Source: a virus
DNA length: 36,828 bases
Reading direction: 5' to 3' (one strand)
Virus record (IMG/VR): IMGVR_UViG_3300006802_000236
Span: 1 to 36,828 of that record
Below are positions 524 through 28,918 of the stretch, piece after piece. The position numbers and the translations under genes were made by a program. Under the pieces are notes generated by a model. It was not told the DNA's origin. It ran no database searches and worked only from the letters and a program-made list of their open reading frames with translations. How positions within the stretch are numbered: the stretch's first letter is position 1; every line of letters begins with the position of its first letter.

Positions 524-585
524 GGTGAACCTTTCAGGTCCGGGAGGGGAGAAGGGGGGGGGGACCGGAACCTTTCCGGTCCCCC
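524..585 (-). promoter_or_regulatory. Intergenic cassette copy 2
   Basis: Same organisation as the cassette at 204-264. The perfect 12-bp stem is at 559-585 with an AGG loop on the minus strand, preceded in genome coordinates by a run of ten G, and the ribosome-binding-site hairpin is at 527-541. It separates the 596-778 gene from the 275-523 gene. It differs from copy 1 by a few bases outside the stem, one in the G-run length and one near 543. Confidence 0.75.
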
Positions 586-595
586 TTGGTTCTTT

Positions 596-778
596 CTAGT
601 AAGTCCACTCTTCGTCGATTCCGAAGAGCACTTCGGCGAGAGAGTGAATGAATCCGCCTTCAGCATACTCCTGAGAAGTACAAGTGGAGCACACGACGTC
701 TTCGAGATCGGTGATCGGGAGCATACGCTCCAGAATCTCACGCTCAATGGTTTCCTCACAACGGGCGCACTTGATCAT
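596..778 (-). CDS. Small zinc-ribbon protein (60 aa)
   Basis: The protein has two CxxC pairs, CARC at residues 4-7 and CSTC at about 30-33, spaced as in small zinc ribbons. The remainder is acidic, ending in DEEWTY. Zinc binding is inferred from the pairs, and no specific family is recognised. The ATG at 776-778 follows the cassette ribosome-binding site (AAAGG) by 8 nt. The stop is followed within about 10 nt by the copy 2 hairpin. G/C-ending codons match the block. A partner role in transcription or translation control is possible but unsupported. Confidence 0.65.
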   Translation of the reverse strand: MIKCARCEETIEREILERMLPITDLEDVVCSTCTSQEYAEGGFIHSLAEVLFGIDEEWTY

Positions 779-839
779 GGTGAACCTTTCAGGTTCGAGA
801 GGGGAGAAGGGGGGGGAGCTGGAACCTTTCCAACTCCCC
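779..839 (-). promoter_or_regulatory. Intergenic cassette copy 3, with compensatory base changes
   Basis: Third copy of the two-hairpin cassette. The stem (813-839) differs from copies 1 and 2 at four consecutive positions, and both arms changed together. Three pairs are exact compensations. The fourth is a G·U pair in the leftward RNA but a C/A mismatch in rightward RNA. That asymmetry shows the structure is selected as leftward RNA. The ribosome-binding-site hairpin (782-796, GAACCT-GAA-AGGTTC on the minus strand) is a perfect 6-bp stem here, against one wobble pair in the other copies. Confidence 0.8.
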
Positions 840-853
840 TTCGATCTTTCCTT

Positions 854-970
854 TCAGCTTTTCTTCCTGAATCGGAGAGCGACAAGTCCCACATACAGGA
901 GCACAGTTCCGAGAAACGCAATCTGCACGACGAACATGAACTCCTGCGGATTGAATCGTCCATGATTCAT
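854..970 (-). CDS. 38-aa single-span membrane protein
   Basis: Short gene read directly from the minus strand. The ATG at 968-970 is preceded by a strong GGAGG site (GGAGGATACAATG), and TGA lies at 854-856. The product has a short polar N-terminus (MNHGRFNPQ), one hydrophobic segment of about 22 residues (roughly 11-32, FMFVVQIAFLGTVLLYVGLV) and a basic tail ending RFRKKS. The positive-inside rule predicts N-out/C-in. Small phage membrane proteins include holin-like, superinfection-exclusion and lysis-regulating types; none can be chosen here. It is the first gene of the cassette-spaced operon and the only one lacking an upstream cassette. Its codon use is GC-rich like the block. Confidence 0.6.
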   Translation of the reverse strand: MNHGRFNPQEFMFVVQIAFLGTVLLYVGLVALRFRKKS

Positions 971-1195
971 TGTATCCTCCAATCGGTGATCCGTTGCTAG
1001 GGCCTACAACAGTATCCCTCCAGACAAGGGGATTGCGCAAGCTACCGGGAGAAGAATCTAGGATGGATAGCCATAAGTACTGAAAAACTCTAGGGTTACG
1101 TCGAAAGAAAAGATTAGAATCGGGATAGAATGGCAAGGAATAGGGGAGGGGATCATAGAGCCTAGAATCGGACACCAGACGATAGGGGCGGGGGG
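971..1195 (-). other. GC-richer leader upstream of the leftward operon, no gene supported
   Basis: About 225 bases without a credible gene. In leftward orientation GATTCTA-type words recur at about 1049-1056, 1112-1120 and 1159-1167. A weak -35/-10 pair (TTGCGC, 18 nt, GATACT) ends near 1010, about 40 nt before the 854-970 gene; it is too weak to call firmly. The stretch ends in a G-rich run (1181-1196) exactly where the base composition switches to AT-rich. Confidence 0.4.
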
Positions 1196-1276
1196 GTCAA
1201 TTCTGAGTTTGTGAAGGTTTTAATTTGTTAAACTACAAATGGTTGCTTTTGTCGGCTATCTCTATAATTAAACACT

Positions 1277-1759
1277 TTAAATATCTTCCCACCAATTTTT
1301 ATGTTTAGAATTTCTCTCTTCTTCTCTTTTTTTATTTTGGTGTTCGATCATCTTAGCAATATCTGGTTTAGTAAAAATAATCTTTGATCTAGGGTCTAGG
1401 GACTCAAATGTTGAAGGCGCTGTCTTATTGCAATTTTTACACCTAATACGAGCCGCTTTATTGATCTCTTTTGCGACCCACTCTTCTCCGCGTCTATTTA
1501 TACCAAAGTCAAATAATTGTTTTACATGTCTATTAGAATGTTTACAAAAGTCTTCTTCTTCTAAGCTATATTCTTTGCCACATATACACTTGAAAGAGTT
1601 CTTTTGAATAAAATTTTTGTAAAACGATTCATCTTTTTCGGCGACCTCTCTCTTGATGTGATCTCTGTGACAATCTTTACAAATGTCTTTAAATTGTTTA
1701 TCGTAAAACCAGATTATAAACTTTTTACTACATTCGACGCATTTTCTTTTTCTTCGCAT
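1277..1759 (-). CDS. Zinc-ribbon hypothetical protein (160 aa)
   Basis: The protein carries several cysteine pairs: CVEC (about residue 8), CKDC (about 27), CICG with a following Cys and a histidine-containing stretch (about 58-80), and CKNC (about 107). This suggests two zinc-binding modules, possibly with an HNH-like His arrangement (CKHSNRHVKQL), but no complete HNH catalytic motif is visible. It is basic and charged, so nucleic-acid binding is likely by inference. The ATG at 1757-1759 has GAAGGG about 10 nt upstream, and a candidate phage promoter (1778-1792, minus) lies 19 nt before the start. It is AT-rich, unlike the block to its left although transcribed in the same direction. About 80 AT-rich bases (1196-1276) follow without a clear terminator. 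Confidence 0.7.
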   Translation of the reverse strand: MRRKRKCVECSKKFIIWFYDKQFKDICKDCHRDHIKREVAEKDESFYKNFIQKNSFKCICGKEYSLEEEDFCKHSNRHVKQLFDFGINRRGEEWVAKEINKAARIRCKNCNKTAPSTFESLDPRSKIIFTKPDIAKMIEHQNKKREEERNSKHKNWWEDI

Positions 1760-1777
1760 ACTTACAACCCTTCTGTG

Positions 1778-1792
1778 CTACTATAAAATACG
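1778..1792 (-). promoter_or_regulatory. Candidate phage promoter motif, leftward
   Basis: On the minus strand this reads CGTATTTTATAGTAG, matching 13 of 15 positions of the motif upstream of the tail-tube gene (CGTATATTATATTAG at 31652). It lies 19 nt before the start of the 1277-1759 gene. A second AT-rich box (TATAAT, minus strand, 1794-1799) lies just upstream and could be a conventional -10. Bases 1760-1813 are the divergent promoter region for the gene pair. Confidence 0.4.
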
Positions 1793-1813
1793 ATTATACA
1801 GTAAAGGAAAAAT

Positions 1814-2008
1814 ATGAAAAACAAATTTAAAATAGATTTCACACAATGTAGAAGGTGTTTTTATATAACTACACATATAGGACGTATTACTAAAGATAAG
1901 TATGGTCATCCACATTGTGAAGTTTGTGAATACGTTGCTTTAAAACAAAGAGAAGAACAAGAAAGAAGATTAGAATCTTTTTTTGACCAAGGAGAGGGAC
2001 AACAATAA
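1814..2008 (+). CDS. Small zinc-ribbon-like protein (64 aa)
   Basis: The protein has CRRC at residues 12-15 and CEVC at about 36-39, a spacing typical of a small treble-clef or zinc-ribbon fold. It ends in a charged Glu/Arg/Gln helix. No named family is recognised. The ATG at 1814 follows AAAGGA by 6 nt. The stop overlaps the ATG of the next gene by one base (TAATG), so the two are translationally coupled. It diverges from the 1277-1759 gene, which encodes another cysteine-pair protein. Confidence 0.65.
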   Translation: MKNKFKIDFTQCRRCFYITTHIGRITKDKYGHPHCEVCEYVALKQREEQERRLESFFDQGEGQQ

Positions 2009-2493
2009 TGAACAAATTAGTACTGTTCTCTGCAATAATTGCATATATACTAGTATCATCAGCTTCAGCTAGTCAAAATCTCACAAGCTCAATTTTGAGC
2101 ACTTCACAAAGTGAAGAAAACTTTAGTAAAGCTAAACCTTGTAAGCCCAAGGTTAGCTACGAAGGATATGAATTAGATTACACTGGACCAAATGATCCGG
2201 CATATTCTGTTTACAACGAAAACCTATGTTGTGATGGCTCCTTCACTTACGGCATTTTCTTTGAAGGATGGCCTCCGGGCACTCGCTTTGAACTCAGACT
2301 CACCAACCACAATGGAAGAAGCATTGTGGCTGAAGATTCAGCAGACTTCAGTGGTTTTGCCACTTTGACATACACACCCACTGAATGTGGCAGCTTTGTT
2401 CTTCTGCCTACGGTACATGCACATGGATTTCCTCCTCGTCACCTATATGATTGTGCGGCACTGATTATCTGTGAAGGATCATGCGATGAATGA
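2008..2493 (+). CDS. Secreted cysteine-rich protein with a Sec signal peptide (161 aa)
   Basis: The N-terminus is a textbook signal peptide: MNK, a hydrophobic core of about 14 residues and a small-residue cleavage site near residue 22 (SSASA|SQ). A Ser/Thr/Asn-rich linker follows, then a domain rich in beta-forming residues with paired cysteines (a CC at about 74-75 and single Cys near 45, 127, 148, 154 and 158), suggesting disulfides in an Ig-like sandwich; the fold is inferred. No family is recognised. The start is fixed by the TAATG overlap with the upstream gene. Codons such as AAC, CTC, GGC and CAC are more frequent than in neighbours, which may signal separate acquisition. An exported phage protein could act at the envelope or outside the cell, for example in exclusion or host interaction; nothing here decides which. 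Confidence 0.7.
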   Translation: MNKLVLFSAIIAYILVSSASASQNLTSSILSTSQSEENFSKAKPCKPKVSYEGYELDYTGPNDPAYSVYNENLCCDGSFTYGIFFEGWPPGTRFELRLTNHNGRSIVAEDSADFSGFATLTYTPTECGSFVLLPTVHAHGFPPRHLYDCAALIICEGSCDE

Positions 2494-2944
2494 TGCTGAA
2501 GGTTTCATGGCAACTTTCTTTCCTGAAAGTTCATGGCCTGAGCCTCTTGATATTAACTCTGCAAATAAACTCGCTCCATTACTTTGCTCAATAATGAAAA
2601 GCGCTGTAGAAAAGCATGAAAAACTAATTCTAATTAGAACAAAAATAAATGTAATCACCAGCAACATTCTAGAATTAGAAAAAGAAGAGCAAAAAGAACT
2701 ACTTAGGACGCTTGAATTACTCTCTTTTGAAATGAAAAACCTTGTAAACTCTCTCAACGACTATGTTTTAGAAGTAGAAAATCTGGGGGGGGAATTTACA
2801 AGTATTAAAAATGGCATTATAACTTTCTACTCAAAAAGAAGAAATATACCAGTATGCATATCAATTACTAAAAATGATAATAAATTTAGATACTGGAGAC
2901 AGCTTCAGGAAAATTTAGCTTGTTCTCGATTGATAGACTTTTAG
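2486..2944 (+). CDS. DUF2203-like protein (152 aa)
   Basis: The start is taken as ATG 2486, 8 nt after AAGGA. The upstream in-frame GTG at 2471 would extend deep into the preceding gene and lacks a site. The protein has an N-terminal segment with DINSANKLAPLL, two long helices (about residues 25-95) and a C-terminal part with a GGEF..IKNGIITF...R pattern followed by YWRQL and a final Arg. This order (helix pair, glycine turn, Gly-Ile/Leu-x-x-Phe, Trp, Arg) resembles the bacterial DUF2203 family, whose function is unknown. The resemblance is from memory of the family pattern, not from alignment. It overlaps the secreted-protein gene by 8 bases, implying co-translation. Confidence 0.6.
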   Translation: MNDAEGFMATFFPESSWPEPLDINSANKLAPLLCSIMKSAVEKHEKLILIRTKINVITSNILELEKEEQKELLRTLELLSFEMKNLVNSLNDYVLEVENLGGEFTSIKNGIITFYSKRRNIPVCISITKNDNKFRYWRQLQENLACSRLIDF

Positions 2945-2955
2945 ATGTTTAGATG

Positions 2956-2971
2956 TTTAGCACCTGCTAAA
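2956..2971. repeat. Short hairpin, TTTNGC family copy 1
   Basis: TTTAGC-ACCT-GCTAAA forms a 6-bp stem. It lies 12 bases after the stop of the DUF2203-like gene and follows a direct repeat of TAGATGTT (2942-2957). The rest of 2945-3117 holds a TCAGAA...TTCTGA pair (2988-3032) and hairpin copy 2, with no gene. Confidence 0.6.
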
Positions 2972-3041
2972 TAAACCTTTTTCTCTATCAGAAACACACT
3001 AAATAACACATGTTTGCGACTTTACTCTTCTGACCAATTGA

Positions 3042-3056
3042 TTTGGCATTGCTAAA
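3042..3056. repeat. Short hairpin, TTTNGC family copy 2
   Basis: TTTGGC-ATT-GCTAAA pairs over 6 bp with one G·U in rightward RNA. It is flanked by GA like copies 3 and 4 (GATTT...). It lies about 60 nt upstream of the 3118-3366 gene. Confidence 0.55.
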
Positions 3057-3117
3057 TACTCAAAACTTGTTTAGAACGATATATCAAAAAACTTTTATTA
3101 CTTAGGACACTAAGCTC

Positions 3118-3366
3118 ATGTTAATTAGCGCAAAAAGAGTTACTGTAATCATTGATACTAAAGGACTTGAACCACCTTTTATTTCTCAGTTTGATTACTT
3201 CTTTCCAACTCCAATTAATGAAATAAAAATAAAAAAGTTCTTACACGCAAATATAAAAAAATTAAGATACAGCATCAAAGAAATTAAATTTGGACCAGAA
3301 AGAAAAGTTTCAAAAAATAGAATTTGGCCGCTGAGAAAAATACAAGAAGATATCTTAGCGAGCTAA
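3118..3366 (+). CDS. Hypothetical basic protein (82 aa)
   Basis: Not recognised. The N-terminal half is beta-like (SAKRVTVIIDTKG) and the C-terminal half is basic and helical, ending in EDILAS. It resembles small phage proteins of mixed alpha/beta type, but no motif is diagnostic. The ATG at 3118 has AGGAC 10 nt upstream (3103-3107). The gene sits between two hairpin-bearing non-coding stretches, and hairpin copy 3 starts 3 bases after its stop. Coding status rests on uninterrupted length and AT-rich codon use like its neighbours. Confidence 0.5.
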   Translation: MLISAKRVTVIIDTKGLEPPFISQFDYFFPTPINEIKIKKFLHANIKKLRYSIKEIKFGPERKVSKNRIWPLRKIQEDILAS

Positions 3367-3368
3367 GA

Positions 3369-3383
3369 TTTCGCATAGCGAAA
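3369..3383. repeat. Short hairpin, TTTNGC family copy 3
   Basis: TTTCGC-ATA-GCGAAA is a perfect 6-bp stem with a 3-nt loop, directly after the stop of the 3118-3366 gene. It has the same loop as copy 4 with an inverted central pair (C-G against G-C), a compensatory difference. Confidence 0.65.
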
Positions 3384-3398
3384 TAAAATAAGATTTGG

Positions 3399-3421
3399 AA
3401 AGGTTTCTCACCCGGAGAAGA
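3399..3421 (+). pseudogene. 23-nt fragment matching the protease-scaffold gene
   Basis: These bases match 25778-25800, inside the protease-scaffold gene, at 22 of 23 positions, including an unbroken 17-base TTCTCACCCGGAGAAGA. In the corresponding frame both read KGFSPGE. Here the frame is closed upstream (TAG at 3376) and 11 bases downstream (TAG at 3432), so it is not translated as a gene. It may be a remnant of a homologous gene or a captured fragment. Confidence 0.5.
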
Positions 3422-3486
3422 AAGATTTAATTAGTTTAACAACTGCTAAATAAACTATGTTTAATTTTTCTTGGGTTTACCTAAGA

Positions 3487-3501
3487 TTTGGCATAGCCAA
3501 A
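3487..3501. repeat. Short hairpin, TTTNGC family copy 4
   Basis: TTTGGC-ATA-GCCAAA is a perfect 6-bp stem followed by an A run and TTTT, so it could terminate rightward transcription weakly. Nearby are further small stems: CTTGGG-TTTA-CCTAAG (3470-3485), CTTGG...CCAAG (3512-3526), GCAAC-AAA-GTTGC (near 3551-3563) and GTCAGAA...TTCTGAC (3598-3631). Confidence 0.6.
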
Positions 3502-3657
3502 AAAAATTTTCTTGGGGCTACCAAGGCCAGCCTTTTCGTTCTTTGTGCGAAGCAACAAAGTTGCACTTAGATTTATGTTAGAGTTGGGAAAGGCTCAGTC
3601 AGAAATGGGTATTAATTCTCTATCTTCTGACTAACATATAAAAAAGGGGTTTATGCA

Positions 3658-3924
3658 TTGGAAAATAACAAATGTCCAATTTGTGGTAGAGATGGAAAAG
3701 AATCTTTCATTCTCTTCTTGTGTTCAAATTATATGTGCAAAAATTTTAGCAGAAAAGCTAGGCAAGAGATTATACTTGAAAAAGCTAGAGGACTGAATAA
3801 AGTAAGCAAAAAAAAAGTAAAACTAGTTACAAAAAAAAAGAAAAAAACCAAGGATTTAGACGATATAATAGATTCTTTTGGAAATAACTTTTATTTTCCT
3901 TTTAGACAAGAAGATAATACATAA
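3658..3924 (+). CDS. Lysine-rich zinc-finger protein (88 aa), TTG start
   Basis: The protein starts with a CPIC...C....C zinc-ribbon-like pattern (residues 6-9, then CSNYMC at about 22-27) and continues into a very lysine-rich tract (about 48-65) and an acidic helix. It is probably nucleic-acid binding; that is inference. TTG 3658 is chosen because AAGGGG lies 9 nt upstream. The nearby ATG at 3653 is in a different frame that closes after 47 codons and destroys the cysteine pattern. It ends 8 bases before the ThyX start with AAGGAG between, so the two are likely co-transcribed. Confidence 0.6.
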   Translation: MENNKCPICGRDGKESFILFLCSNYMCKNFSRKARQEIILEKARGLNKVSKKKVKLVTKKKKKTKDLDDIIDSFGNNFYFPFRQEDNT

Positions 3925-3932
3925 GGAGAGCT

Positions 3933-16913: not shown

Positions 16914-19900
16914 ATGGCTAACATATTTCAATTTGGACCCGAAGGAAGGCACATATTAGTCGATGCATCTGGAAGAATGGTTGTAAATTCTCTTTCTAGT
17001 GCAGCTCCTTTTATTTATGCATATGGCCCAGAGGGACACCCTCTTGCTGTTGACGCTTCTGGTAGATTGCTAATATCTGATATTGCTACGGGGTCTTCAG
17101 GTGTATCTGGGGCAATTGGACTAGACGGGTTAACAGACGTAATCATAACTACACCCACAAATGGCCAAATAATACAATACGATGGTGTCTTTTGGGAAAA
17201 TGTTAACAATACTGTTGAAAATCTTTCAAATGTAACTGGTTCAGCAATAAGTGGCCAATTTTTAAGTTACAATGGATCAAATTGGGTTGCAAGTGATGTA
17301 TCATTAACACTAGATGAGCTTTCAAATGTAATAATATCTACTCCTTCAACAAATGACGCTTTGATTTACAATGGTGCAAACTGGGTCGCGAGCGGCCTAT
17401 CAGCTATAATAAATTCTAATGTTACCTATGAGGCACTAGATTCTAACGGAGACATCGGAGCAGGATCTGGCCAAGTTGCATCTGGATTACATTCTCACAA
17501 TTTTGAAGATCTTACAAATATGTCATTTTCAGGTGCTCAATCTGGAGATATAGCAAGATACAATGGTTCAATTTGGCAAAATTCAAATATATTAACAAAA
17601 ACTACACCTATTTACGACGGCATGTCAACTACACCTTTGACTGTTTCTATATACACTTCTGGAGCTACACCAGATGTTTACTTATCAGTATCGGGATATG
17701 AGGCCAACAATACTTTTACCGCAATAGAAAATCAAGGACAAACTATTGTTGGAAGCGGAGACTCAATCCAATTGATAGCTGGAAACAATTCAAGTCTTCA
17801 GGCGAACTATGCATACTATTCAGTTTCTGGCTCATCACTAGTTCTAGAAACAAGTACAACTGGATTCCCGCCTTCTGGTTCTCATGTTAGAGTTGCAGAG
17901 GCTCATATCCAGTCAAGCTCAGGCGTGGCATCCGATGGCCCAATTGTTTTTGTTGAGTGGTCTGATGAAATAGAAGACGAAAGACAAATTGGACATTTAT
18001 CAGACATTAATACTTGGATAAAGTACCAATCAGCTAAATGGCTTAGCGGAGTTAGCTTTAGTGGAATTATAACTACAAATCCATCAACTGCTGACAATGT
18101 TGGGTTTTCAGGGTCAGCAGGAAAAGTTCTACTCTCTCACGAAATGAATTTTGATCAAAAAGATTTTGGAATACCTTCTTCTAGCGGTGTTGCATTTGTG
18201 ACTAATTACCCAAGCTCTCCATACTTAAGAATACAAGATTTAAATGAATTGCTAGTAGATTCAAATAATTCAAGCTTAGTTAATAAGTATTTTACACTAG
18301 TTATATGGGGAGTTGTAAACCCAGAAGGTATGTGCCAACTAATGGTTAACTTGCCAAATGGTTCATATACAAATGAGGCAAAGTTACTTAACGATGTAAA
18401 TGGAATTAGCGACTACTCAATACCTAGTGAGTTTTCACATAATTCATTTTTAATTACAGAGCTTAAACTTAGGCATCAAAACGCAAACAACGGAACTTGG
18501 ACACTTTTAGATTCAATTGATCTAAGGGGCTATGAGCCTAGCAATTCTGTTGGTGGGTTATCTCGGTCCGTGTCACTTTTATTAGATGAACTAAATGATG
18601 TTACAATTACAGCAGCTTCAAGTGGTCAATATATTCAATACAACGGGTCAGAATGGATTAACACAACTGTCTCTGCTGGAACTTCTAGTCTATCAGGGCT
18701 AACTGATACAAGTGTATCTGGCGCAAGTCCATCAGAAGTTCTTGTGTACAATGGCTCTGTTTGGATTCCCTCTGGAATTACATATCCAGTTGACTCGGTT
18801 AACGGACAAACCGGAAATGTTGTTATAACGGCAAGTGGACTAGGAGCATTAACTTCCTCTTCTGGAATCGACGATTTATCAGATGTAAACACATCTGGTG
18901 TCTCAATCGCGGATTCATTAGTTTATGATGGAGCCAACTGGGTTCCCTCTGGCATAACAGTTGGAGCCGCATCTTTGTCTGGACTAACAGACACAAATGT
19001 TTCAGGAGTCAGTAATTCTGATGTCTTGGTTTACAGTGGGTCTCAGTGGGTTCCGTCTGGCATAGCATTCCCTGTTGACTCGGTAAACGGGCAGACTGGA
19101 GATGTTACTATAACCGCAAGCGGCTTAGGAGCACTGACGACATCATCTGTAATTGGAGACTTATCGGACGTAACAATAGCTTCTGCTACTAGTGGCGAAA
19201 TATTGCAATATGACAATTCCACAATAGTAAACAGAACTCTTTCAGAGGCGGGAATATCTGAAGTTGGTCATAGTCATGATTTAAACGATCTTTCAGATGT
19301 AAACACTTCAGGTGTAGCACAGACTGATGTAATTGCCTACGACGGTGCAGGCTGGGTGGCATCCGGTATAAGTTTCCCCGTTATTTCAGTAAATGGGCAA
19401 ACCGGAACTGTTTTAATAACTGCAAGTGGACTAGGAGCACTAACACCCTCGTCTGGAATCGACGATTTATCAGATGTTAACACATCTGGTGTTTCAGCAG
19501 CAGACTCACTTGTTTACGATGGGGCTAACTGGGTACCATCTGGTGTAACGGCTCCAGTAACTTCTGTTAACAGCCAAACTGGCGATGTCACCATAACGGC
19601 AAGTGGGCTAGGAGCACTAACATCTTCGTCTGGAATCGACGATTTATCAGATGTAATAATAGTCTCTGCGACAAGTGGAGAAATTTTACAGTACAGCGGA
19701 TCAACCATTATAAACAGAACGCTTTCAGAAGCTGGCGTGTCAGAAGTTGGGCATACTCACGCGATAAATGATTTATCCGATGTAAATACTGCAGGTGTAA
19801 CACAAGCAAATGTGATTGCTTATAACGGTGCAAGCTGGGTAGCATCTGGTATAAGTTTTCCAGTAAGCTCTGTTAATGGTCAAACCGGAGCGGTCGTTAT

Positions 19901-22178
19901 AACAGCAAGTGCACTAGGGGCGCTAACTTCATCTTCTGGAATAAATGATCTCTCTGATGTAAACACTTCAGGTGTTTCAACAGCAGACTCACTTGTTTAC
20001 GATGGGGCTAACTGGGTGCCATCTGGTGTAACTGCCGGATCAGCATCACTGTCAGGCTTAACTGACACTAGCGTTTCAGGTGCTTCAAATACAGAAGCAC
20101 TAATATACGATGGCAATCAATGGGTGGCCAGCGGTCTTTCCACAATAATAGACTCAAGAGTAACCTATGAGACACTTGACACTAATGGCGATGTTGGAGT
20201 TGGCTCATCGCAACTAGCATCTGGTTCACACTCACACGCTTTGCAAGACTTAACAAATGTATCAATAACTTCTGCATCTTCTGGGCAAACAATAGAGTAT
20301 GATGGATCAGATTGGGTAAATGTAACGCCGTCTCAAGGAGTTACAACTCTCTCAGCACTATCAGACACAAATGTTTCAGGAGTCAGCAATTCTGATGTTT
20401 TGGTTTACAGTGGATCTCAGTGGGTTCCGTCCGGTATAACATTTCCTGTTGATTCTGTTAATGGACAAACTGGAACTGTTACCATAACCGCAAGTGGATT
20501 AGGCGCACTAACATCTTCCTCTGGAATAGATGACCTATCCGATGTAGAAATAACTTCCGCTACTAGTGGGGAAATATTACAATATAGTGGCACCACTATA
20601 ATCAACAGAACTCTATCAGAGGCTGGCATATCAGAAGTTGGCCATAGTCATAATTTAAATGATCTTTCAGACGTAAGCACTGCAGGTGTCACGCAAACTG
20701 ACGTAATTGTCTACAACGGTGCAAGCTGGGTGGCTTCAGGCATATCTTTCCCTGTAACATCAGTGAATGGGCAAACCGGAGCAGTTGTAATAACTGCGAG
20801 TGGCCTCGGGGCTCTAACCTCATCCTCTGGAATAAACAATCTTTCAGATGTAAATACCGCTGGTGTTTCAACTGCTGATTCATTGGTTTACAATGGAGCT
20901 AACTGGGTGCCTTCTGGTGTAACAGCTCCAGTAACTTCTGTGAACAGTCAAACTGGAGATGTGGTTATAACCGCAAGTGGATTAGGTGCATTAACCTCGT
21001 CTTCTGGAATAGATGACTTATCTGATGTTACTATAGCCTCCGCAACAAGTGGTGAAATACTACAATACAGTGGCTCTACTATTATAAATAGAACACTGTC
21101 AGAAGCTGGTGTATCAGAAGTTGGTCACAGTCATGATTTTAACGATCTAAATGATGTAAACACTGCAGGCGTATCACAAACTGATGTAATTGCTTACAAC
21201 GGCGCAAGTTGGGTTGCATCTGGAATTACATATCCCGTTGATTCTGTTAATGGGCAAACAGGAACTGTTGTTATAACGGCAAGTAGTTTAGGGGCTCTTA
21301 CTTCATCCTCTGGAATAGATGATCTTTCCGATGTGAACACTTCTGGTGTTTCAACCGCTGACTCATTAGTTTATGATGGGGCAAACTGGGTTCCATCTGG
21401 TGTAACAGCCCCAGTAACCTCAGTTAACAGCCAAACAGGGGATGTAACAATAACCGCAACAAGCCTCGGAGCACTAACATCTTCTTCTGGAATAGACGAT
21501 TTATCTGATGTTACCATAACTTCTGCAGCAAGCGGTGAAATACTTCAATATAGTGGTTCAACAATAGTCAACGTAACTCTTTCAGAAGCTGGTATATCAG
21601 AAGTTGGTCATACACATGCAATAAACGATTTGTCTGATGTAAATACAGCCGGAGCATCTAGTTCGGATGTAATTGCCTACAACGGTGCAAGCTGGGTTGC
21701 TTCAGGTGTAACTTTCCCCGTAACCTCAGTGAACAGCCAAACTGGCGCAGTTACAATAACTGCAACAAGTCTCGGAGCATTGACTTCTTCTTCTGGAATA
21801 GATAACCTATCAGATGTAGCAATAACCTCTGCAACAAGTGGCCAACTACTAAGGTACAATGGTTCAAATTGGGTAAACTATGAAAATGTTCCGTATAGAG
21901 ACAAGGTTAACACTGTTGGTTCAGACTTCAGTATTACTGCTAACAATGTTTATCTATTTGAAAGCAGCTCTGGCGCACTAACTGGAACACTTCCTAGTTC
22001 ACCCCTATCTGGAGACAGAGTGATATTAAAAGACAAAGATGGGCAAGCTGCAACAAATAGGCTTAGCATAGAGACACCTTCAGCAGAAACTATTGACGGT
22101 GCAAGTAGTTACCAAATCGGTTCTAATTTTGGCTCATTAACTTTAATTTCAGATGGAACTAATTGGTTCATAGTCTAA
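16914..22178 (+). CDS. Giant repeat fibre protein (1754 aa)
   Basis: An extended fibre built of LSDV-type beta repeats. The N-terminal 60 residues contain two copies of a YGPEG/DASGR unit. A globular insert (about 230-550) interrupts the repeats. From about 620 to 1640 a module repeats 11 times: SVNGQTG-x-V-x-ITASGLGALTSSSG, then DDLSDV, then LVYDGANWVPSG. Seven HxH motifs (five of the form EVGH(S/T)H) occur; in the T4 gp37 tip, seven HxH motifs bind iron along a trimeric fibre. The C-terminal 90 residues (LFESSSGALTGTLPSSP...TIDGASSYQI...LISDGTNWFIV) match a common fibre tip domain. It lies between portal and protease, so a head- or neck-attached fibre is as possible as a tail fibre. Confidence 0.85.
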   Translation: MANIFQFGPEGRHILVDASGRMVVNSLSSAAPFIYAYGPEGHPLAVDASGRLLISDIATGSSGVSGAIGLDGLTDVIITTPTNGQIIQYDGVFWENVNNTVENLSNVTGSAISGQFLSYNGSNWVASDVSLTLDELSNVIISTPSTNDALIYNGANWVASGLSAIINSNVTYEALDSNGDIGAGSGQVASGLHSHNFEDLTNMSFSGAQSGDIARYNGSIWQNSNILTKTTPIYDGMSTTPLTVSIYTSGATPDVYLSVSGYEANNTFTAIENQGQTIVGSGDSIQLIAGNNSSLQANYAYYSVSGSSLVLETSTTGFPPSGSHVRVAEAHIQSSSGVASDGPIVFVEWSDEIEDERQIGHLSDINTWIKYQSAKWLSGVSFSGIITTNPSTADNVGFSGSAGKVLLSHEMNFDQKDFGIPSSSGVAFVTNYPSSPYLRIQDLNELLVDSNNSSLVNKYFTLVIWGVVNPEGMCQLMVNLPNGSYTNEAKLLNDVNGISDYSIPSEFSHNSFLITELKLRHQNANNGTWTLLDSIDLRGYEPSNSVGGLSRSVSLLLDELNDVTITAASSGQYIQYNGSEWINTTVSAGTSSLSGLTDTSVSGASPSEVLVYNGSVWIPSGITYPVDSVNGQTGNVVITASGLGALTSSSGIDDLSDVNTSGVSIADSLVYDGANWVPSGITVGAASLSGLTDTNVSGVSNSDVLVYSGSQWVPSGIAFPVDSVNGQTGDVTITASGLGALTTSSVIGDLSDVTIASATSGEILQYDNSTIVNRTLSEAGISEVGHSHDLNDLSDVNTSGVAQTDVIAYDGAGWVASGISFPVISVNGQTGTVLITASGLGALTPSSGIDDLSDVNTSGVSAADSLVYDGANWVPSGVTAPVTSVNSQTGDVTITASGLGALTSSSGIDDLSDVIIVSATSGEILQYSGSTIINRTLSEAGVSEVGHTHAINDLSDVNTAGVTQANVIAYNGASWVASGISFPVSSVNGQTGAVVITASALGALTSSSGINDLSDVNTSGVSTADSLVYDGANWVPSGVTAGSASLSGLTDTSVSGASNTEALIYDGNQWVASGLSTIIDSRVTYETLDTNGDVGVGSSQLASGSHSHALQDLTNVSITSASSGQTIEYDGSDWVNVTPSQGVTTLSALSDTNVSGVSNSDVLVYSGSQWVPSGITFPVDSVNGQTGTVTITASGLGALTSSSGIDDLSDVEITSATSGEILQYSGTTIINRTLSEAGISEVGHSHNLNDLSDVSTAGVTQTDVIVYNGASWVASGISFPVTSVNGQTGAVVITASGLGALTSSSGINNLSDVNTAGVSTADSLVYNGANWVPSGVTAPVTSVNSQTGDVVITASGLGALTSSSGIDDLSDVTIASATSGEILQYSGSTIINRTLSEAGVSEVGHSHDFNDLNDVNTAGVSQTDVIAYNGASWVASGITYPVDSVNGQTGTVVITASSLGALTSSSGIDDLSDVNTSGVSTADSLVYDGANWVPSGVTAPVTSVNSQTGDVTITATSLGALTSSSGIDDLSDVTITSAASGEILQYSGSTIVNVTLSEAGISEVGHTHAINDLSDVNTAGASSSDVIAYNGASWVASGVTFPVTSVNSQTGAVTITATSLGALTSSSGIDNLSDVAITSATSGQLLRYNGSNWVNYENVPYRDKVNTVGSDFSITANNVYLFESSSGALTGTLPSSPLSGDRVILKDKDGQAATNRLSIETPSAETIDGASSYQIGSNFGSLTLISDGTNWFIV
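18780..21830 (+). repeat. Eleven-copy coding repeat array in the giant fibre gene
   Basis: Eleven modules share a near-fixed peptide (S-V-N-G/S-Q-T-G...LGALT). At DNA level the same peptide is written with many different synonymous codons in each copy, and spacing alternates between about 180, 300 and 590 bases depending on which sub-units are included. Positions 7 to 11 alternate NGQTG and NSQTG variants. This is not a CRISPR array: it is in frame throughout and has no conserved non-coding repeat. Confidence 0.85.
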
Positions 22179-22188
22179 GGAGATTTAA

Positions 22189-22713
22189 ATGCATACTTAT
22201 TGGACACTTTTATACTTAGAGTCAGAGGGGTTGCCAATTCACCCACTTCCATCTGGAGCAGATTTAAATGAAGAGCTTTCAAAAAACTGTTTAGTAAGAG
22301 ACAAGCTAAATGACAATTTTTATATTACAACAGATAAAAATTACTTACAGATTCAGAATAAGATAAAAGTTCATAAATCAAAAAATAGCTCAACATTAGA
22401 ACTAAATCAAGATTATGTAAATTTAGTTCTAGACTCTGTTGAAATTGATTCAGACTATGTTGATATTGAAAATTCAGAAATTGTAGTAAAAAAGTCTGGA
22501 GTTTATAGTATAAATTGTTGTTGTGAAATTAAAGATGTTGACTTAGTGTTGGAAGCAGGAAGCTATATTTCAAACTGTTATAGCAACAATGACCTCATAG
22601 ATTTTGTTGAAATTAATGAAGGAGAGTTAGTTAAAATAAAAGCAAAAAGCACAAATGGTCAAACTCTCTCAGTTCCACAAAATTCAATTAAAATTTTTAT
22701 AGAAAATAGATAA
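22189..22713 (+). CDS. Hypothetical beta-rich protein of the fibre module (174 aa)
   Basis: Not recognised. The first 60 residues have an aromatic start (MHTYWTLLYLESEGLPIHPL). The remainder alternates short strands (DYVNLVLDSVEI, GVYSINCCCEI, LVKIKAKS) typical of a jelly-roll or C1q/TNF-like head domain, with a CCC cluster at about residues 107-109. ATG 22189 follows AAGGAG by 7 nt. The gene begins 10 bases after the giant fibre and ends 1 base before the next fibre gene, so it is probably a fibre accessory, tip or attachment protein. There are no repeats of the LSDV type. Confidence 0.6.
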   Translation: MHTYWTLLYLESEGLPIHPLPSGADLNEELSKNCLVRDKLNDNFYITTDKNYLQIQNKIKVHKSKNSSTLELNQDYVNLVLDSVEIDSDYVDIENSEIVVKKSGVYSINCCCEIKDVDLVLEAGSYISNCYSNNDLIDFVEINEGELVKIKAKSTNGQTLSVPQNSIKIFIENR

Positions 22714-25025: not shown

Positions 25026-25424
25026 ATGAGCATATTGACATTTATTGGTACAATTTTTAAGCCAGCAGTAGATCTTATAGATGACTTACACTTGAGCAAG
25101 GAGGAAGAGGCTACATTAAAAAATGAATTAGAAAAAATTCAAGTACAAGTTAAAGAAAAGGTAATAGATCTTGAATCAAAAACCATAGAAGGCCAAGCCA
25201 AAATAATAGAGGCTGAAGCAAGAAGCGACTCTTGGTTAACCAAAAACTGGAGACCAATGGTTATAATGAGCTTATTCTCTCTAATAGTTTTAGACTATTT
25301 TGGAGTATCGTCTTCTGACGGCCTACCAGAGCAAGCTTGGAGAACAATTGATATAGCGCTGGGTGGATATATTGGTGGAAGATCTGTTGAAAAGGTTGCA
25401 AGAATAGTTAAAACATCCACTTAA
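25026..25424 (+). CDS. Holin of the GTA/3TM type (132 aa)
   Basis: The protein follows the GTA_holin_3TM pattern: an N-terminal helix ending in DLIDDLHLSKEEE, a long amphipathic coil with EGQAKIIEAEA, then SWLTKNWRP, a strong membrane helix (VIMSLFSLIVLDYFGV, about 79-94) and a second glycine-rich helix ending GGYIGGRSVEKVARI. Holins permeabilise the inner membrane at lysis. No endolysin gene is visible nearby. Its position among head genes is unusual for a lysis gene but shared with other phages and gene-transfer agents. It starts 10 bases after the fibre gene with a weak site. Confidence 0.85.
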   Translation: MSILTFIGTIFKPAVDLIDDLHLSKEEEATLKNELEKIQVQVKEKVIDLESKTIEGQAKIIEAEARSDSWLTKNWRPMVIMSLFSLIVLDYFGVSSSDGLPEQAWRTIDIALGGYIGGRSVEKVARIVKTST

Positions 25425-25435
25425 AAAACAAAGTT

Positions 25436-25451
25436 CGTATATTATTATGAG
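25436..25451 (+). promoter_or_regulatory. Candidate phage promoter upstream of protease-scaffold
   Basis: CGTATATTATTATGAG starts 48 bases before the ATG at 25484. It matches the motif upstream of the tail tube (31652) in its first 10 bases, and both are followed by a TTTATTTAA run. The location in the gap after the holin gene fits transcription of the capsid genes. Confidence 0.55.
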
Positions 25452-25483
25452 TGCTTTATTTAACTTTTAACTTTAAGGCAAAA

Positions 25484-27409
25484 ATGGAATTTAAAACAGA
25501 GATAAGATGCTTAGCTGAATTAATGCAAATGTCCGAAGAGGATGTTCAGCATTGCTTAGAGCTTGCCAAATCTGCAGAAAACGACAGCTTCAAACCTACT
25601 GACGGCATGGTCAGAGAAGCCAAAAAAGGGCTTGAGTGGAGAAGAGAGCATGGTCGAGGCGGAACAGATGTTGGAATTGCTCGTGCTCGTGATATAGCTA
25701 GTGGGAAAAACCTACCTCTAAAAACTGTAAAAAGAATGCACTCATTCTTTTCAAGACATGAAGTTGATAAAAAAGGAAAAGGCTTCTCACCCGGAGAAGA
25801 CGGTTTTCCTAGCAACGGAAGAATAGCTTGGGCTTTATGGGGTGGAGACCCCGGCCAAACTTGGGCCGCAAGCATTGTCGAAAGAGCTAAAAAAAGAGAA
25901 AAAGCTTCAGCGAATATAGATCCAGATTTATTAAAAATGAAGTCAATTTTAGTTTCACAAGGAATGAATCTAAATGACGATGTATTTTTAAAAGAAGAAC
26001 TTATAAAAGCTAGGTTAACTGGGGCTCACAAACCCGTTAACATTGAGCATCAAGATACTGAAATAGTCGGTCACATGCTAGAAACATATGTTGTTTCAAA
26101 AAGCGGTGAAAGACTTGACAGTGCTGAAGATATAGAAAATGAAGACTTAATTGACATAGTAAACGAGTCTGTCATTTACGCTTATATATTTCCAGAAGTT
26201 TCAGCTAGAATAGAAGAACTAGCTGCTAAAAACCAGCTTTTTGTATCAGTAGAGGCTTGGTTCTCAGACTACGATTATTTAGTTGGAGAAGACATTGTAA
26301 AAAGAACCTCTGCGACATCAGACATCCTAGAGAAGCATTTAAGAATAAATGGAGGAGAAGGTGTCTACGAAGAAAAAAAAGTTGGAAGAGTTTTAAGAAA
26401 TTTAATGTTCGGGGGAGTAGGGGTCGTTGCCACTCCCGCTAATCCCGATTCTTTAATTTTAGAAGTCGGAGACACTGAAAATAAAGCTGCTTCAGAGCAG
26501 TCTATTTTAGCGTCTCATATTATTGGCAATTTTGAGGCTAAGAAGGAGAAGATTATGGAAAACCCTCAGTTAGATGATTCTAATTCTGTAGAGGAAACTG
26601 ATCTTGAGATTTCTGAAGCTTCAATTACCGAAGAGTCAGAGGTTAATGGCGCTGACGATGTGGAAATGACAAATGCTTCTGAAGAAGATGTCTCAGAGTC
26701 AACTGATCAAGAGTCCGAGGCTCAAGATCAAGACCTAGATATTTCAGATGCTTCTGGTGATATTCACATGTCAGAGTCAATTGAAGCTTCTGAGGAAGAG
26801 GTGGTTGAAGAGTCTTCAGAAGATCAAGTTTCAGAAGATTCTGAGAACCTAGAGTCAGAAGCTAGTATGCATGAAGAAGAGCAGGATTCTGGATACCATG
26901 ACAAAGAGCAGGCAATGGGCGAGCACGGCGCTCACCACCACCCTGAGATTATGGCCAAGGTTGACGAGATGATGGCGATTCTATCAGGAATGACAGATAT
27001 GGTTACTAAGCAAAATGAAATTATTGGCGGTATGCATGACAAGATGAAAGAAATTGAAGCTGGTCAAATCGTCAATGATAGACATAAGAAAATGATGGAA
27101 GCTGGAATGGACTCAGAAATGATTGATTCAAGAGCTGACAGAGTTTCCGCTATGTCTGACCAAGAGTTTAACGATTACATTGAAGATGTAAAAAGCCTAC
27201 TAGTTAAAAGCATTGCTTCACTCGAAGATGTACCTGAGCAAGTAGAGCTAAAAGAAGTAGAAGAGCAGGTTGTTGACTCAGAAATTGATTTGTCAAAAAT
27301 TGAGTCTACAGATGCAGAAATTAATATAGATTCAGATTCCTCTGATCCCACCTATCAGAGATTTTTTCAAGCTGTTTCAAGTTCATTTAACAAGAGAAAA
27401 AAAAGATAA
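25484..27409 (+). CDS. Prohead protease-scaffold fusion (641 aa)
   Basis: ATG 25484 (AAGG 5 nt upstream) is chosen. An in-frame GTG at 25451 overlaps the candidate promoter and has no site. Residues 1-130 form a known phage domain with GGTDVGIARARDIASG, RMHSFFSRHEVDKKG and SNGRIAWALWGGDPG. Residues about 170-340 hold a protease-like domain with HKPVNIEHQ (182-190, His182 and His189) and GHMLETYV; FGGVGVVATPANP ends it. Residues about 357-520 are extremely Glu/Ser/Asp-rich and helical, followed by a Met-rich coiled coil, as in scaffolds. The protein would thus supply maturation protease and scaffold, the scaffold also from an internal start (26555). The protease class is not decidable; the catalytic residues are inferred. 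Confidence 0.8.
   Translation: MEFKTEIRCLAELMQMSEEDVQHCLELAKSAENDSFKPTDGMVREAKKGLEWRREHGRGGTDVGIARARDIASGKNLPLKTVKRMHSFFSRHEVDKKGKGFSPGEDGFPSNGRIAWALWGGDPGQTWAASIVERAKKREKASANIDPDLLKMKSILVSQGMNLNDDVFLKEELIKARLTGAHKPVNIEHQDTEIVGHMLETYVVSKSGERLDSAEDIENEDLIDIVNESVIYAYIFPEVSARIEELAAKNQLFVSVEAWFSDYDYLVGEDIVKRTSATSDILEKHLRINGGEGVYEEKKVGRVLRNLMFGGVGVVATPANPDSLILEVGDTENKAASEQSILASHIIGNFEAKKEKIMENPQLDDSNSVEETDLEISEASITEESEVNGADDVEMTNASEEDVSESTDQESEAQDQDLDISDASGDIHMSESIEASEEEVVEESSEDQVSEDSENLESEASMHEEEQDSGYHDKEQAMGEHGAHHHPEIMAKVDEMMAILSGMTDMVTKQNEIIGGMHDKMKEIEAGQIVNDRHKKMMEAGMDSEMIDSRADRVSAMSDQEFNDYIEDVKSLLVKSIASLEDVPEQVELKEVEEQVVDSEIDLSKIESTDAEINIDSDSSDPTYQRFFQAVSSSFNKRKKR
26555..27409 (+). CDS. Internal start giving a free scaffold protein (284 aa, nested in frame)
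   Basis: Within the protease-scaffold frame, AAGGAGAAGATTATG gives a strong Shine-Dalgarno at ideal spacing before Met358 (ATG 26555). The initiation site falls exactly between the protease domain and the acidic scaffold region. The product would be the Glu/Ser/Asp-rich segment plus coiled coil, without protease. This is the arrangement of lambda C/Nu3, where nested initiation yields excess scaffold. Expression is inferred from the site; it has not been observed. Confidence 0.65.
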   Translation: MENPQLDDSNSVEETDLEISEASITEESEVNGADDVEMTNASEEDVSESTDQESEAQDQDLDISDASGDIHMSESIEASEEEVVEESSEDQVSEDSENLESEASMHEEEQDSGYHDKEQAMGEHGAHHHPEIMAKVDEMMAILSGMTDMVTKQNEIIGGMHDKMKEIEAGQIVNDRHKKMMEAGMDSEMIDSRADRVSAMSDQEFNDYIEDVKSLLVKSIASLEDVPEQVELKEVEEQVVDSEIDLSKIESTDAEINIDSDSSDPTYQRFFQAVSSSFNKRKKR

Positions 27410-27420
27410 GGAGATACGAC

Positions 27421-27891
27421 ATGGCACTAAAAGCGCATCAGAAAATCATTGCAGATGACATCAACTTCCGCCTTGGAACGGCGGAGGAGCGTGGAATCAT
27501 GGTTTGCATTTCAACAACTACTGACGGAGAAGTCACCAAGGCTGCCAACGCCAGTGGTGCTCGTGTAGCTGGAATGCTTCTAATGGACACCGTTACACGC
27601 GGAACTCCGGGCAACCTCGCCAGTCTTGGCGACGACACCGGGACAACAACTCTACCCAGAAACATGAACAAAAACGAGACCTATGTATCTGGTGTTGTTC
27701 GCCTTCTCAAGAAGGGTGAAGCTGTAACTGATAAGGTCACTGGCTCAATCTCAAAGGGCGACACCCTCTACATAGCTGACAGTGGCGTTCTAACCGCCTC
27801 TGCTGCGACAGGCTACCAAGAGGTTGGTTACGCTCTTGAAGATCTTAGTGACACTTTCACTGGGTTTGTAAAAGTCTTTATTGACTGCTAA
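27421..27891 (+). CDS. Capsid decoration/stabilising protein candidate (156 aa)
   Basis: A small beta-rich protein between protease-scaffold and major capsid, the usual place of a decoration protein. It contains a beta-barrel pattern of alternating strands with glycine turns: RVAGMLLMDTV, ETYVSGVVRLL, ISKGDTLYIADSGVL and QEVGYALEDL. This resembles DUF2190-like or head-stabilising proteins that bind capsid surfaces; the family call is tentative. It has a strong AAGGAG 8 nt before ATG. Codons end in C/G far more often than in nearby genes, as in the major capsid gene, consistent with very high expression. Confidence 0.7.
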   Translation: MALKAHQKIIADDINFRLGTAEERGIMVCISTTTDGEVTKAANASGARVAGMLLMDTVTRGTPGNLASLGDDTGTTTLPRNMNKNETYVSGVVRLLKKGEAVTDKVTGSISKGDTLYIADSGVLTASAATGYQEVGYALEDLSDTFTGFVKVFIDC

Positions 27892-27931: not shown

Positions 27932-28918
27932 ATGAGTGATTTCAGTTCAATGGACAGCAAGAAAGATCTTCTAAGATCAACTGCAGGGCACGATCCTGTT
28001 AGTCTTGATAATCGCAGAGTTCTTGCTCAGGTTCTAAGTGATGTTTGGAAGACCGGAGCCTTCGAGCCCGATCTTCTTGGTGGTATTTTTACCAGAATTA
28101 ATGTTGCGCCGGGTGTTGATGCCAAGTTCCCCCTTGACTTCTACAGCCCGACAATTTCAGATACAGATGATCACACCGCGTTCGTCGTCCCTGCAGAGGG
28201 AAAGATTCCGAACAGAGTCATTGACGGCGATGAAGTACACGTTCCCACTTACAAAATTGCTAACGCGATTTCTTGGAACCTCGACTATGCTAGAGATGCT
28301 CGCTGGGATGTCATTGAGAGAGCTATCGAAGTTTTCACCAATGGTTTCACCAGAAAGATGAATGACGACGGATGGCACGTTGTTCTAGCCGCTGCTGCTA
28401 ACAACTCTGTTACAAACGACACCGCTGCCGGATCTGGCGTATTCACGAAGCCGCTACTCACTTCAATGCAAACTGCCATGAAGAGACTAACCGGAAATCG
28501 TGACGGCAAGCTCACCGACCTCTTCTTGAGCCCGGAGGCGATTGCCGACATTCGCAACTTCAGTGACACAGTTGTTGATGATGCTACTCTTCGCGCCCTA
28601 ATCAACCACGATGGTGAGGCTCCGCTTCCTAGCTTATTCGGAGTAACTCTACATGAGGTTATTGACATGGGTGTCGGCCAAGAGTACCAGACTTACCTAA
28701 CTGGCACTGTTGGTGCTTCACTTGCTGCTTCAGATGCAGAGTTCTGTGTTGGACTTGACCTTGGTCGTCGCGATAGCTTCGTAATGCCCGTTCGCGAAGA
28801 CATGGAGATGTTCGACGATCCGTCTCTACACAGAAGTGGCAAGGCTGGCGTCTACGGCTGGATGGAGCTTGGATTTGCCGCTCTTGACAACCGCAGAGCT
28901 ATTCTTGGTTCACTCTAA
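27932..28918 (+). CDS. Major capsid protein (328 aa)
   Basis: Assigned from position (after protease-scaffold and decoration), a size normal for HK97-fold capsid proteins, a shifted high-expression codon usage and a terminator directly after it. Sequence elements fit the fold: a long N-arm, then GKIPNRVIDGDEVHVP..KIANAISW, a spine helix with ERAIEVFTNGFTRKMNDDGW, LFLSPEAIADIRNF and GVTLHEVIDMG as P-domain strands, and DNRRAILGSL at the C-terminus. There is no obvious long delta domain, consistent with the scaffold being supplied separately. AAAGG precedes the ATG. Confidence 0.85.
   Translation: MSDFSSMDSKKDLLRSTAGHDPVSLDNRRVLAQVLSDVWKTGAFEPDLLGGIFTRINVAPGVDAKFPLDFYSPTISDTDDHTAFVVPAEGKIPNRVIDGDEVHVPTYKIANAISWNLDYARDARWDVIERAIEVFTNGFTRKMNDDGWHVVLAAAANNSVTNDTAAGSGVFTKPLLTSMQTAMKRLTGNRDGKLTDLFLSPEAIADIRNFSDTVVDDATLRALINHDGEAPLPSLFGVTLHEVIDMGVGQEYQTYLTGTVGASLAASDAEFCVGLDLGRRDSFVMPVREDMEMFDDPSLHRSGKAGVYGWMELGFAALDNRRAILGSL

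Follow-up and report, generated by a model that had tools for sequence, protein, structure and literature searches.

The locus analyzed here raises the question of whether a single viral gene gives rise both to a capsid protease-scaffold fusion and to a free scaffold initiated within the same reading frame. The window, i.e., the whole stretch of 36,828 nucleotides that was analyzed, is a linear virus contig in IMG/VR (IMGVR_UViG_3300006802_000236), and its relevant features are collected in Table 1. The original prediction had placed an AAGGAG with 6-nt spacing ahead of an in-frame Met358, leaving a 284-residue remainder, at the boundary between the protease and an acidic scaffold domain; every one of these figures is exact when checked against the sequence.

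Table 1 Features of the protease-scaffold locus (positions of the window)
Feature	Coordinates	Strand	Basis
Full-length gene: N-terminal module, protease, acidic linker and coiled coil, 641 aa	25484..27409	+	ORF; alignment with relatives begins here
N-terminal module, residues 38-141, phrog_2859 (unknown function)	25595..25906	+	E=1.7e-30
Predicted protease domain, residues ~145-343, herpesvirus assemblin / T4 gp21 fold	25916..26512	+	Predicted model; invariant His189, Ser255
Internal Shine-Dalgarno (SD) sequence AAGGAG	26543-26548	+	Read from sequence; position conserved in relatives, sequence context not
Nested ORF, predicted free scaffold, 284 aa, 31.8 kDa, pI 4.05	26555..27409	+	
Acidic, mostly disordered stretch of nested product, 38% D+E, 1% K+R	26555..26929	+	AlphaFold model, composition
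Long helices / coiled coil, residues 430-582	26771..27229	+	Model helices 430-477, 487-539, 544-555, 559-582
C-terminal helix, basic end ...SSFNKRKKR, residues 622-639, candidate capsid-binding tail	27347..27400	+	Model
Decoration/cement-like gene with own AAGGAG, directly 3'	27421..27891	+	Phage_cement_2 E=6.6e-4, below Pfam cut-off
Major capsid protein gene	27932..28918	+	Phage_capsid_4 7.9e-6, just below Pfam cut-off; 26% identity to Bacillus phage G major head protein

Predicted fold of the protease and probable identity of the tail

A Pfam search with the full 641-aa protein gave no hit, and the protease domains of the family gave nothing meaningful there; the best PHROG match of the family, phrog_16389, is labeled 'unknown function'. 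Among 50,697 phage records searched by sequence, two further family members had 0 matches, and no annotated relative of the whole protease was found, the matches of the window gene in these records being to its N-terminal module. With a 43-sequence alignment as input, AlphaFold predicts residues 151-330 with a pLDDT of about 87-98 and acidic disorder from ~342, so that in the model Met358 lies where the protease (to ~343) gives way to the disordered acidic stretch, as had been predicted. Using the predicted domain in Foldseek, the best PDB matches were all herpesvirus proteases (2.8e-4). In VIA, the model matched the VZV protease (Z 11.1, 128 aligned, rmsd 3.9) and T4 gp21 (Z 9.4, 128 aligned, rmsd 3.0), whereas unrelated rows scored Z at or below 6.1; sequence identity in the herpesvirus fold match is only about 10-20%. 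Bacillus phage G gp19 also resembles the predicted model by fold. The two residues His189 and Ser255 are invariant across the 43 sequences, and a profile match, not significant alone (E about 0.5), aligns the His region to assemblin residues 56-80. Residues ~145-343 are predicted with high confidence to form an assemblin/gp21-type capsid protease. In T4, the gp21 protease and the gp22 scaffold are encoded by separate genes.

The module ahead of the protease has matches in 97 phage records, many of them from cultured phages, and one cultured-phage protein that carries it is annotated as a capsid maturation protease. It is common to proteins of Roseobacter, Synechococcus, Vibrio and actinobacterial phages, is degenerate in the relative L004, absent from L007, L008, L012 and L013, and in L009 stands ahead of a seemingly different type of prohead protease. 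Judged from this distribution, phrog_2859 looks like a mobile module.

The predicted nested product, with the N-terminus MENPQLDDSNSVEETDLEISEAS, contains 29% D+E overall. Within its coiled coil, the AlphaFold model is confident at ~490-580 and less so at 430-480, and the basic C-terminus is also present in L004, L012 and L008. The order protease/scaffold, decoration, capsid recurs in L004, L007, L008, L012 and L013. The protease-like fold, together with cement and capsid genes directly downstream, points to a capsid protease whose tail is scaffold-like in composition and place. An acidic stretch, a coiled coil, a basic C-terminal helix and a position before the head genes are the usual make-up of a scaffold, and we infer that the tail is one. 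Conceivably, Met358 is a true start and its product is something else, e.g., an internal core or ejection protein: searched against known scaffold families (PHROGs, PDB), the tail had no significant match, with coiled-coil-type hits only, and the tail of one family member reached phrog_194, a head scaffolding protein, at a non-significant E=0.046. However, the tail is fused to a capsid protease immediately upstream of the decoration and capsid genes and combines all three scaffold-like elements, and we regard a non-scaffold product as quite unlikely.

Two other regions of the window stand out. Positions 16914-22178, between the portal and head genes, encode a 1754-aa tail-fibre-like protein with many GVSxxDSLVYDGANWVPSG-type repeats. 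At the contig end, long ORFs at positions 266-1000 overlap one another, and GEPF.S.RGEGGG-type sequences recur in their translations; this end is repetitive and differently composed, and the stretch could be an assembly artefact.

The putative internal start within the window

At window positions 26540-26560, the sequence reads AAGAAGGAGAAGATTATGGAA, in which the AAGGAG is followed by the spacer AAGATT and by ATG 26555-26557, codon 358 of the 641-aa frame. The arrangement AAGGAG-N4-10-ATG occurs three times in the 36.8-kb window on both strands, before the genes at 22189 and 27421 and at codon 358. By anti-SD duplex energy, the Met358 start scores -8.8 kcal/mol and ranks second among the 169 internal in-frame ATGs of the 23 window genes used. 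The starts of the window genes have a median SD energy of -5.2, vs -1.7 for internal ATGs (p=3e-7), and since the phage gene starts carry an SD signal, the host ribosome probably reads it. The gene's own ATG at 25484 has a weak SD, taaggcaaaaATG, of -3.7 kcal/mol. Lys codon usage differs between the two parts of the gene, with AAA:AAG at 24:2 in residues 1-343 and AAG in all three cases in the junction, residues 344-357. Folding predictions give no sign that RNA structure exposes the site, with an unpaired probability of 0.34 there vs 0.49 at other ATGs, and predicted accessibility across the family showed no difference between nested starts and other ATGs. Judged by the window sequence alone, the case for a real nested start at Met358 is suggestive only.

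Alternatively, an internal promoter could drive a nested mRNA that is the main source of free scaffold, in the manner of herpesvirus UL26.5; the internal SD would then belong to that transcript. The protein architecture is the same as that of UL26/UL26.5 (PMC12474303), and an SD would be needed either way. However, a scan for promoters of the sigma-70 type alone found none on the + strand from 25450 to 26555, the only one being at 25421, and the neighboring genes are closely spaced on one strand, suggesting an operon. We therefore consider a nested mRNA very unlikely to be the main source of the scaffold.

Conservation of the nested start across the family

A profile of the protease domain retrieved at least 557 relatives from IMG/VR, of which 80 were fetched and clustered at 70% identity into 50 non-redundant members. 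All complete fetched relatives are protease-tail fusions, and the nested products of the 50 members span 180-361 aa (median 221). In L004/L005, which share 46% identity with the window, AAGGAGG-5 nt-ATG lies in frame at the same boundary, AAGGAGGaaaatATG, within junction sequence that cannot be aligned; in the distant relatives L007, L008, L012 and L013, the strongest in-frame SD start is likewise at the boundary.

The main challenge to these observations is chance, i.e., that Lys-Glu codons before a Met in the linker happen to spell an SD and that only the full-length protein is made. AAGGAG is indeed an ordinary Lys-Glu codon pair, and a junction start equally strong arises in 3% of synonymous shuffles of the window gene. 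Moreover, an in-frame ATG at 27499 inside the decoration gene (27478-27501) is preceded by an SD-like GGAGGAGcgtggaatcATG that scores -12.8 kcal/mol, stronger than Met358; the counterpart stretch of L004 has no such site, so this match is itself probably due to chance. The comparison argues differently for the junction. In 44 of the 50 members, the best in-frame SD start past codon 30 is located 10-60 aa beyond the conserved PAN..S motif, vs an expected 7.6 +/- 2.5. Median SD energy in the junction interval is -8.7 kcal/mol, vs -2.8 and -0.75 in the same-size flanking intervals (n=50) and vs -3.85 and 0 when the junction interval itself is read in its two alternative frames. A junction start of -6 kcal/mol or better is present in 48/50 members (42 ATG and 6 GTG), with the start codon 5-12 nt beyond the SD core. 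Among these 48 nested starts, the SD core occupies two codon phases, split 25/23, which indicates conservation of the nucleotide sequence rather than of a peptide. Residue 2 is Ser in 27 of the 48, vs 6.25% at other Mets (p=2e-20); Met-Ser is a frequent beginning of true N-termini. Synonymous shuffling gave p<0.05 in only 7/50 genes (combined p=5e-10), a weak single-gene outcome that is expected if the junction amino acids are themselves chosen to allow an SD. At 50% protease identity, the family splits into 8 clusters, of which 7 have the site. Close relatives alone therefore do not account for the result, but the groups do have a common ancestry. On this comparison, the chance reading appears largely refuted, and we judge it highly improbable.

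An SD-like sequence could also act as a ribosome pause just past the predicted folded domain, helping the protease to fold before the tail is made and leaving the ATG incidental; yet pausing requires no start codon, nearly all members have an ATG or GTG in frame at start distance, the residue after it is N-terminus-like, and an SD kept with its in-frame start lost is clearly seen in 0/50 homologues, which makes a pause extremely improbable.

The same second start at the same boundary in nearly all 50 relatives thus argues that the start is real, and internal initiation at the family junction is strongly supported by the retention of SD and start in surroundings that are not conserved, in agreement with the original prediction for the window gene. 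Two of the 50 are exceptions, L018 with a weaker site and L081 with a strong SD start further down. In L081, the protease is followed by an insertion of ~150 residues, and the SD start taaGGAGGTGtacaaagatATG (GGAGGTG then ATG) has been displaced together with the scaffold part to 183 codons past the PAN..S motif, so that the product, at 232 aa, is of normal size. A subgroup comprising L023, L030, L046 and related loci has a near-perfect nested SD, GGAAGGAGGTGTAGA, at -15.5 kcal/mol, often with a GTG start and overlapping an EGGVE peptide.

In a genome collection, six loci were found, mostly in metagenome bins, with a junction SD start in four (L094, L095, L097 and L098). L099 is split into two frames, and in L096 the protease has no tail and the junction SD is absent too. 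The L096 gene (3668..4564), a stand-alone protease, neighbors a tape-measure-like gene on a bacterial metagenome contig and may stem from a prophage that has decayed or been domesticated. In L007, the 1116-aa ORF of the terminase large subunit (576..3926) has Cys...His-Asn borders and a homing-endonuclease-like middle, and appears to contain an intein.

Proposed two-start model and relation to known systems

Taken with the predicted fold and gene order, we consider it very probable that this gene yields both a protease-scaffold and a free scaffold from two starts. One mRNA would carry two initiation sites, ATG 25484 for the 641-residue protease-scaffold and ATG 26555, behind the internal AAGGAG, for the 284-residue scaffold without protease. 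With the coiled coil and the basic C-terminal helix present in both forms, the two would assemble together within the procapsid, beneath the major capsid protein, and the full-length form would thereby carry the protease into the procapsid. The stronger internal start (-8.8 vs -3.7) would supply the larger share of plain scaffold, giving a mixed core with little protease, of the kind found in Mu and lambda and reached by herpesviruses through UL26.5, and the scaffold would presumably be digested later. Met358 is likely to be used in vivo, and scaffold would then be expected to exceed protease; the SD strengths fit such an excess but do not prove it. Self-cleavage at the junction could also release the tail and is compatible with the nested start, but it leaves the conserved SD and start codon unexplained.

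The nested-start mechanism is already known from lambda and Mu. The family that carries it here appears undescribed, our literature search having found no description of this protease-tail family or its nested starts. The two-start reading offers a likely function for a family that is widespread (at least 557 loci in IMG/VR) yet has no Pfam model, and each of these genomes probably encodes one protein that its annotation lacks. It also illustrates how SD conservation can reveal a nested start where the sequence is otherwise unalignable.

Herpesvirus UL26/UL26.5 likewise combines an assemblin-fold protease-scaffold fusion with a nested, shorter scaffold that has the same C-terminus. UL26.5 is a nested gene with its own transcript, whereas the signal in the window is an internal Shine-Dalgarno sequence. 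HSV-1 UL26 has 635 residues and its nested product 329, and VP21, derived from the full-length form, makes up only about 10% of the herpesvirus scaffold (PMC12474303). With an assemblin-fold protease and a nested scaffold in a phage, so near the herpesvirus design, shared ancestry of the arrangement becomes testable. A bolder proposal, which we hold to be unlikely, is that a largely uncultured tailed-phage lineage keeps the full UL26/UL26.5 architecture and that the one-gene, two-product design could be ancestral to both, with nesting being translational in phages and transcriptional in herpesviruses.

Phage P2 gpO is a protease-scaffold fusion for which, to our knowledge, no nested start is known; in P2 O, we found no strong SD start at the scaffold boundary, the only strong one being at codon 281/284 and the next at -4.6. 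In phage Mu, an in-frame internal SD and start likewise yield a free scaffold (Z) from the protease gene (I), immediately upstream of the head genes, and the annotated nested start, cAGGAGaacaaacccATG, resembles that of the window and scores -7.4 kcal/mol by the same energy measure. PaMx73 provides a Mu-like precedent for a protease/scaffold nested start (PMC4378225). The protease of the window is assemblin/gp21-like by predicted fold, and no sequence match to Mu-type head proteins was found.

In lambda, a nested scaffold (nu3) likewise occupies the 3' part of the protease gene (C), and the order portal, C/nu3, D (decoration), E (capsid) resembles that of the window; lambda C is an annotated S49 family peptidase, in contrast to the assemblin/gp21-like protease predicted here. 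At the annotated start of nu3 (5132), the SD is weak, at -2.7 kcal/mol. Elsewhere in lambda NC_001416 (L102 1143, genome position 5342), an in-frame ATG preceded by AGGAGG at good spacing scores -10.8, and the annotation of the nu3 start may merit checking.
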